Of a DNA stretch of 64,000 nucleotides, positions 9,424 to 37,387 are shown piece by piece. Numbering within the stretch: the first letter of the stretch is position 1; each line of letters opens with the position of its first letter. A program made the translations under genes and the position numbers. The DNA comes from Clostridiales bacterium (GTDB lineage Bacteria > Bacillota > Limnochordia > Darwinibacteriales > B1SED10-159), in assembly GCA_003559095.1 (NCBI GenBank), contig PWMW01000264.1, positions 29,065-93,064 of the forward strand. Reading direction: 5' to 3'. The notes beneath the pieces were generated by a model. That model made no database searches and had not been told where the DNA came from. It saw only the letters and a list, made by a program, of their open reading frames with translations.

Positions 9424-9450
9424 AAAAAAACCTCCCCGGTCTCGGAGAGG
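9424..9450 (-). terminator. intrinsic terminator/attenuator whose 3' arm contains the ABC-F Shine-Dalgarno
   Basis: Minus strand CCTCTCC-GAGACC-GGGGAGG-TTTTTTT then G-ATG; GGGGAGG lies 8 nt from ATG. Confidence 0.85.
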
Positions 9451-9573
9451 CATGGTGACCCAAGAACATACTGCCCACAGCAAAACAGGCACAGTGCCGC
9501 TGTGGGACGCGCCGGGGCGGGCTATCGGCGGGACGTCCCGCAAACCCAACCACGGAAAAATGGGCATACCAAT

Positions 9574-9584
9574 CCTATCCGAGA
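9574..9584 (-). promoter_or_regulatory. candidate anti-terminator strand in ABC-F leader
   Basis: TCTCGGATAGG pairs 10/11 with terminator 5' arm CCTCTCCGAGA (plus-strand 9440-9450). Confidence 0.6.
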
Positions 9585-9722
9585 ATCAAATCGTTCACAT
9601 TCTGTATGCACGCCGGAGTTGACCCGACGTTGCATGACGATGTTGATTTGGTCATTGTGGATAGGTTAGCGCCTCATAGATCCCGTAGATTCCCCTTTCG
9701 CGGATCGCGTAATTCTATCTGC

Positions 9723-9751
9723 AGTATACCAGAATCCGATCCCTTTGTATA
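9723..9751 (-). promoter_or_regulatory. promoter of ABC-F leader transcript
   Basis: TATACA-17 bp-TATACT with extended -10 TGG. Confidence 0.6.
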
Positions 9752-9779: not shown

Positions 9780-11072
9780 TCAGCGCCCTCGGCGCTGGCC
9801 GGTCCGTCCCGGAGTAGACCGCTTCTGTTCATACAGGAAAAATGTGCAAAGCCAGCCCACGACATTAAAGGCCAGCAGGATACCGAAGGCAGTACGATAA
9901 CTGCTGAGATCATACACCGGTGAGCTGCCCACGATGGTACCATCCCAAGTTCGATCCAAGGCTGCCCCCATGAGCAGGCTGATCAAGGCTGAGATCAAAA
10001 AGGCACCGAAGTTCACGACACTAGTGGCGATGCCAGAGTATGCCAGCGGATTGGCTTCTTTGGTGCTGGTGAAACAGAGGATAAATGTAATGGCAGAAAG
10101 TCCCAAGATCAAAAAGGTTACACTCCACAGCCAGGTTGGCATGGTGGGAGCCCACCACAGCAGAACATAGATAACCAGTGCAATGGTGGAACCACCGCTG
10201 ATCAGCGGCCGCACGCGGCCCATGCGGCCTGCAGCATAGCCCACCAGCGGTGATCCTAACAGCAGTCCTAGGGTCATCCAAAGCATCAGGCCCGCTGCGG
10301 TCTCGCGGCTGAAACCATGGACATGCGATAGATACGATACACCCCAGACCCCACCCACGGCCATGTTCGCTCCCATCAGCCCAGCAAAGCCAAAGAGGGC
10401 AAACCAGGTGAAGCGGTTCTTCACTACCTGCTGCAGTCCATTCAACAGCGATTGCCGGTCCGCCTTTTTGTAGGGATGGATAGGCGTGAATTGCTTGGAT
10501 TCGGGACGGTCATGCACCAACAGGGCAATAGCCGCAGCGGCGCCCAGCGAGATTAAGCCCAAACCCATGAACACCGTCCGCCAGCCCCACGCCGCAGCGG
10601 CTGCTGCCAACGGTGCTTGGGCTAACACACCGCCGAGATTGCCCACTGAGGACAGAAGTCCCGCCAACAGCGAAAAATAGCGCGCTTCAAACCACACCGA
10701 TTGGATCTTGAGAGCCGAAAGAAAGATCCCGGATACGCCGACGGTGACTAAGATACGCCCCATCAGGGCCATTGCGTACCCCGGAGCCGCAGCGAAGAGG
10801 AACGAACCGACAGCCGCCAAGACCATACCGACCAAGGTCAACCGTCGCGGACCAAAACCATCGATGAAGAAGCCAACGGGCAGCTGTAGGAGGCCGTAAA
10901 CGTAGAAATACGCTGCTCCTAGGTTACTGAGCATCGCGGCACTGAGCACCAGCTCGCTCTGCAGGTCTTCGGCCACGACGCCGATGGCAAAGCGGTGAAA
11001 AAAACTAATGAGCAGCGCCATACTCAGCGTCACCATCATACTCCAACGAACTTGCTGAAACGATAGCTGCAC
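9780..11072 (-). CDS. MFS transporter
   Basis: 12-TM hydrophobicity; LLQLPVGFFIDGFGPRRLTLVGMVLAAVGSFLFAAAPG. Confidence 0.9.
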   Translation of the reverse strand: MQLSFQQVRWSMMVTLSMALLISFFHRFAIGVVAEDLQSELVLSAAMLSNLGAAYFYVYGLLQLPVGFFIDGFGPRRLTLVGMVLAAVGSFLFAAAPGYAMALMGRILVTVGVSGIFLSALKIQSVWFEARYFSLLAGLLSSVGNLGGVLAQAPLAAAAAAWGWRTVFMGLGLISLGAAAAIALLVHDRPESKQFTPIHPYKKADRQSLLNGLQQVVKNRFTWFALFGFAGLMGANMAVGGVWGVSYLSHVHGFSRETAAGLMLWMTLGLLLGSPLVGYAAGRMGRVRPLISGGSTIALVIYVLLWWAPTMPTWLWSVTFLILGLSAITFILCFTSTKEANPLAYSGIATSVVNFGAFLISALISLLMGAALDRTWDGTIVGSSPVYDLSSYRTAFGILLAFNVVGWLCTFFLYEQKRSTPGRTGQRRGR

Positions 11073-37301: not shown

Positions 37302-37387
37302 GCCGAAGTGGTGGAATTGGCAGACACGCACGACTCAAAATCGTGTGGGATTATCCCGTGAGGGTTCGACTCCCTCCTTCGGCACCA
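37302..37387 (+). tRNA. tRNA-Leu (anticodon CAA), CCA encoded
   Basis: Acceptor GCCGAAG/CTTCGGC-A-CCA; anticodon stem CACGA/TCGTG with loop CTCAAAA; GGTTCGACTCC T-arm; long variable arm. Confidence 0.95.

Follow-up and report, generated by a model that had tools for sequence, protein, structure and literature searches.

The closest known system to the leader considered here is that of cplR in Clostridioides difficile, where an upstream open reading frame (uORF) encoding Met-Arg-Ile and a terminator hairpin that sequesters the Shine-Dalgarno (SD) sequence control the induction by retapamulin and lincomycin, and where the transcript ends at the start codon when no drug is present (PMC10201436). 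In Bacillus subtilis, the uORF (Met-Ile-Asn), anti-anti-terminator, anti-terminator, and terminator of vmlR have been dissected, and the SD sequence lies in a separate hairpin (PMC9226507). A third gene, lmo0919 (VgaL) of Listeria monocytogenes, is a Vga-type ABC-F gene induced by lincomycin (PMC6310831, PMC10201436), and its leader has been aligned with that of cplR in the uORF and anti-SD elements (PMC10201436).

Here we describe the leader of an ABC-F gene within a stretch of 64,000 nucleotides, called the window below. Like cplR, the leader contains a three-codon uORF held in a 5′ hairpin, an alternative anti-terminator, and a 3′ terminator hairpin that also sequesters the SD sequence of the ABC-F gene (PMC10201436). 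It differs from cplR in the bacterial lineage, in the uORF, which reads Met-Arg-Arg, and in the encoded protein, which scored 400.6 bits against the CplR model (NF043038) and did not pass its cut-off of 780. Induction by retapamulin and lincomycin was measured in cplR and is predicted for the present leader. With vmlR it shares the three-codon uORF, the anti-anti-terminator, the anti-terminator, and an intrinsic terminator before the ABC-F gene (PMC9226507); vmlR divides the two tasks between a terminator (SL-3) and a hairpin that sequesters the SD (SL-4), whereas a single hairpin serves for both here. As with lmo0919, a cplR-like leader precedes a Vga-type ABC-F gene, a likeness drawn through the published alignment (PMC10201436). 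The type of switch is already known from cplR, and this leader is a clear new example of it. We put at about 90% the probability that the leader controls this ribosomal-protection gene of the ABC-F family by ribosome-mediated attenuation of the vmlR/lmo0919/cplR kind.

Results

The ABC-F Protein and the Neighboring Gene

The protein passed the NCBIfam model for ribosomal protection-like ABC-F proteins (NF000355; 440.4 bits, cut-off 380) and did not pass that for the Vga family (NF000170; 494.6 bits, cut-off 725), making it Vga-related and not filed as Vga. Its best solved relative was a lincosamide-streptogramin A resistance protein (7nhl, 365 bits), followed by a macrolide-resistance ABC-F protein (5zlu) and Lmo0919, and its interdomain region could be aligned nearly gap-free with those of VgaA (7nhl) and Lmo0919. 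An MFS transporter gene (9780–11072) lies directly upstream on the same strand. This position is kept in a same-genus relative (77% over 424 aa) and a same-family relative (58% over the last 81 aa), and a linked efflux role of the transporter is possible.

Elements of the Leader

The leader extends over about 290 nt of the minus strand from promoter to terminator (Table 1). A scan of the leader returned one promoter-like site, with TG ahead of the −10, which is the promoter named in the original prediction. At the other end, CCTCTCC (9450–9444), GAGACC, GGGGAGG (9437–9431), seven T residues (9430–9424), G, and ATG (9422) were read base for base as had been claimed, and a terminator scan also returned the hairpin and T-tract, with a stem of 9 pairs. 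GGGGAGG is both the 3′ arm of this hairpin and an SD sequence 8 nt from the ATG. An intrinsic terminator, predicted from its sequence features, immediately precedes the ABC-F start. The leader tail folded with −24.1 kcal/mol, and the full leader was more stably folded than its shuffles (z = −3.4).

Table 1. Positions of the leader elements and the ABC-F gene in the window.
Feature	Position	Strand	Remarks
Promoter TATACA-17 nt-TATACT, extended −10 (TGG)	9723..9751	-	sequence reading and promoter scan; −10 TATACT also in L002 and L111
SD of uORF, AAAGGGG	9692..9698	-	14 nt from uORF ATG; GAAAGGGGAATC identical in all three close relatives
uORF ATG AGG CGC TAA (Met-Arg-Arg-stop), three codons	9666..9677	-	proposed sensor; MRR in L002, MRG in L111
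Segment 1, CCTATCC	9659..9665	-	anti-anti-terminator 5′ arm; +13 to +19 from uORF AUG
Segment 2, TCTCGGATAGG	9574..9584	-	anti-terminator; partner of segment 1 or segment 3
Conserved stretch around TGCCCATTTTT	9554..9568	-	immediately downstream of segment 2; in the repressed fold its TGCCCAT end folds back onto the uORF and pairs there
Segment 3, CCTCTCCGAGA	9440..9450	-	terminator 5′ arm and loop; partner of anti-terminator
Segment 4, GGGGAGG	9431..9437	-	terminator 3′ arm and SD of ABC-F gene
T7 tract of intrinsic terminator	9424..9430	-	sequence reading and terminator scan
ABC-F ribosomal-protection protein, Vga/CplR-like, 541 aa	7797..9422	-	both nucleotide-binding domains intact

Segments 2 and 3 pair at 10 of 11 positions, which confirmed in the sequence the proposed upstream partner of the terminator 5′ arm. 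For this 11-mer, 0.94 equally good matches are expected in the whole 64 kb, counting both strands, and about 0.001 within the leader. The attenuation reading of the original prediction was supported and right in outline, but it had missed the uORF sensor and segment 1. The uORF is found upstream in the leader in the context GAAAGGGGAATCTACGGGATCT-ATGAGGCGCTAA-CCTATCC; here CCTATCC follows the stop codon directly, falls within the region that a ribosome stalled at the uORF would cover, and pairs with GGATAGG (9580–9574) of the anti-terminator. Pairing of segments 1 and 2 permits the terminator (3:4), and pairing of segments 2 and 3 blocks it. The leader thus has what is seen in attenuators of the vmlR/cplR kind: a short uORF with an SD sequence, an anti-anti-terminator beside it and under a stalled ribosome, and an anti-terminator exclusive with the terminator in its pairs, its compensatory changes, and its fold switch. 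The 14-nt spacing of the uORF SD is above the usual and counts against the attenuator reading; the distance from the GAAAGGGGAATC block to the uORF ATG is identical in all three close relatives, and the intervening 10 nt have diverged.

Compared with shuffled leaders, neither helix of the window leader alone was individually significant (anti-terminator, p = 0.07; anti-anti-terminator, p = 0.20), and the case rests on the joint placement of the elements and on the relatives. Two additional hairpins named by the original prediction, GCGGGACGTCCCGC and CCCACAGC/GCTGTGGG, are indeed present, but they lack conservation even within the genus. An Rfam scan showed no RNA family over the leader, its sole match in the window being a tRNA at 37302, and plasmid records contained no DNA resembling this leader. 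The pattern GGAGG-N-TTTT-ATG occurs at 13 sites in the genome, and at only one of them, before this ABC-F gene, does GGAGG form the 3′ side of a local hairpin that is both strong and long; an SD sequence and T-tract before ATG as a genome-wide feature was accordingly rejected (1/13). As controls, a stretch upstream of two further, more distant ABC-F genes in this genome was inspected by eye and showed nothing similar.

Conservation and Covariation in Close Relatives

The leader was aligned with those of the same-genus relative (L002), whose ABC-F protein is 72% identical, and the same-family relative (L111), whose ABC-F gene is in two contig pieces (48–52% identity; 48% over the N-terminal part on its contig). 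The same arrangement was present in both. The three leaders have diverged except for islands, namely the −10, GAAAGGGGAATC (AAAGGGGAATC), ATGAGG-GCTAACCTATCC (ATGAGG-GCTAACCTATCCA), CGGATAGGA, TGCCC-TTTTT, and TGCCT--CCG--A-CC-GGGAGGTT; what remains conserved in the two nearest relatives is the −10, the uORF, segments 1–4, and the T-tract. In the three family genomes, ATG-N6-TAACCTATCC occurs once per genome, each time ahead of this ABC-F gene.

The anti-terminator helix covaries, being TCTCGG/CCGAGA in the window, GATTCCGG/CCGGAATC in L002, and GGTTCCGG/CCGGAACC in L111. Three pair positions are changed on both sides. Counted outward from the invariant CGG, pair 1 is T-A in the window as against C-G in L002 and L111, pair 2 is C-G in the window as against T-A in L002 and L111, and pair 4 is A-T in L002 as against G-C in L111. 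Conservation of the two pairing arms, set beforehand as a test that could refute the reading, was thus found, with compensatory changes in the anti-terminator helix, and the arrangement that would couple termination to SD sequestration holds in all three close relatives.

Computed Fold Switch

In the free, full-length window leader, the computed probabilities of both the 1:2 pairing and the terminator were 1.00. When the 32-nt footprint of a ribosome positioned at the uORF AUG was kept unpaired, the probability of the 2:3 pairing was 0.97 and that of the terminator 0.02 (0.02–0.06 with the footprint on the uORF), and the ABC-F SD was unpaired with a probability of 0.63, as against 0.00 in the free leader. 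As the footprint was slid along the leader, the switch occurred only over the uORF/segment 1 region (offsets of about −2 to +16), and the terminator probability was near 1 with the footprint more than about 28 nt downstream or 14 nt upstream. Base pairing in the repressed fold includes the uORF AUG (5% unpaired), one of whose partners is TGCCCAT; this accounts for the conserved island at 9568–9554.

Under the footprint, the equilibrium fold switched in the window leader, L006, L010, L039, and L041, and partly in others; it did not switch in L002 and L111, a point against the attenuator reading, and there the order of folding during transcription must matter. As the footprint fails to switch these two leaders, equilibrium folding alone is an unreliable test, and it was rejected as a universal one.

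Leaders of Other ABC-F Genes

Thirteen members of the class were found at E ≤ 1e-80, and the leader was readable in 12 of them (L012 is cut by a contig end). A uORF of 2–4 codons together with a terminator whose 3′ arm is the SD sequence was present in 11 of these 12. The sole exception, L013, has no SD-containing terminator before its ABC-F gene; a different hairpin with a T-run is located farther upstream there. The uORFs of the class encode MRR, MRG, MRL, MKN, MFN, MFI, MK, and MKNS, and leaders of other Bacillota add MDN, MRI, MYN, MFI, MIL, MRM, MIIG, and others. Equivalent elements are thus present ahead of ABC-F genes throughout this class as well as elsewhere in the Bacillota. In all, 22 of the 26 leaders examined had a 2–4 codon uORF, a count that is not an unbiased frequency, as the 26 were hand-picked for an intact tail.

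Two pairings were assessed in 22 leaders against 500 dinucleotide shuffles each, namely the best match of the uORF-proximal segment to the rest of the leader and that of the terminator 5′ arm to the leader. Both helices beat the shuffled leaders, with combined Fisher p values of about 1e-15 to 2e-15 and of 5e-11, whose significance is overstated, since leaders that are related do not count as independent. In 16 of the 22, the best partner from one test shared at least 5 nt with that from the other.

Variant leaders with four-codon uORFs (MKNS, MRIG, and MIIG) were seen in L010, L037, and L056, which have a longer terminator with the SD inside a 3′ arm such as GGAAGGAGAGAT. In L034 and L075, metagenome-assembled genomes that bear the labels Bacillus coagulans and Lysinibacillus, ATTTTATTAGTC follows directly on the T-tract of the terminator at base 1501; no ATG, GTG, or TTG stands at the usual place, and the ABC-F gene may start at ATT.

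Discussion

Without drug, the three-codon uORF would be translated and the ribosomes would depart, segment 1 would take segment 2 to form the anti-anti-terminator, and segment 3 would be left free for segment 4, so that transcription would terminate within the T7 tract, immediately ahead of the start of the ABC-F gene. In any read-through RNA, the SD sequence would be locked within that same hairpin. A peptidyl-transferase inhibitor of the pleuromutilin, lincosamide, or streptogramin A kind would hold a ribosome at the uORF start, covering segment 1 at least partly; segment 2 would then pair with segment 3, no terminator would form, RNA polymerase would read through, and the SD would be free. 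The ABC-F protein would then presumably protect the ribosome. As the uORF stops after three codons and its codons vary among relatives, stalling at or just after initiation, as with these three drug groups, fits best.

The codons themselves bear on a related reading, that the same switch is tuned to macrolides through the nascent Arg-Arg instead of to initiation-stage inhibitors. In favor of it, macrolides are known to stall ribosomes at Arg/Lys motifs; the peptide encoded here is Met-Arg-Arg, and uORFs with MR are common among the relatives. The uORF has three codons only, however, and MFN, MFI, MDN, MIL, and MK stand at the same place in relatives, which suggests that stalling occurs at initiation or close to it, whatever the sequence. 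The protein itself also comes closest to Vga, with an interdomain region that can be aligned to VgaA and Lmo0919 as described above. We regard tuning to macrolides as improbable.

Slightly less probable still is a purely translational control, in which the hairpin hides the SD, the T-tract is of no consequence, and a ribosome stalled at the uORF does no more than open the ribosome-binding site. The position of the SD as the 3′ arm agrees with this, as does cplR, where a reporter with its poly-U mutated remained repressed in the absence of drug and could still be induced with retapamulin (PMC10201436). Against it, the stem is followed by T7 in the window and the hairpin by T-runs in all relatives examined, as for a working terminator, and the cplR transcript without drug ends at the start codon (PMC10201436).

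It is very unlikely that the sensor is, instead of the three-codon uORF, a longer ORF of 61 codons (9567–9382, starting MPIFPWLG), which has an ATG and a weak purine stretch upstream and reads across the terminator as far as the ABC-F gene. In L111 this ATG is replaced by CTG, the sequence after TTTTT is not conserved as protein, no Pfam family matched, and the conserved part is the nucleotide sequence TGCCC-TTTTT, explained by pairing in the repressed fold; as a leader peptide it was rejected, its start codon not being kept in relatives. This ORF extends past the ABC-F start in another frame. That the hairpin is the ordinary terminator of the MFS gene upstream, with fortuitous pairing, we consider the least credible reading of all: the gene is on the same strand and its place is kept in both relatives, but the hairpin lies about 330 nt past its stop and adjoins the ABC-F start, a conserved promoter −10 precedes it, the anti-terminator covaries, and the hairpin also stands before ABC-F genes in distant genomes.

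Returning to attenuation by a stalled ribosome, a broader and tentative proposal, which we think rather less probable than its opposite, is that the leaders of the class carry a sequence-independent "start-stop" sensor and are homologous to those of Bacilli and Clostridia, descending from one ancestral switch. Selection would then keep only a uORF of 2–4 codons whose stop codon begins the anti-anti-terminator, and any drug blocking the first peptide bonds would induce the gene, whatever the codons.

The leader extends the uORF-controlled attenuation of ABC-F genes, described in C. difficile and B. subtilis, to a class known from mostly draft genomes. The set of leaders separates features that appear constrained (the length of the uORF, the stop codon beside segment 1, and one hairpin as terminator and SD lock) from those that appear free (the loops and the codons of the uORF). 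From the presence of such a leader, one would predict that these bacteria encounter peptidyl-transferase inhibitors, and its features offer a way to recognize inducible resistance ABC-F genes in metagenomes.
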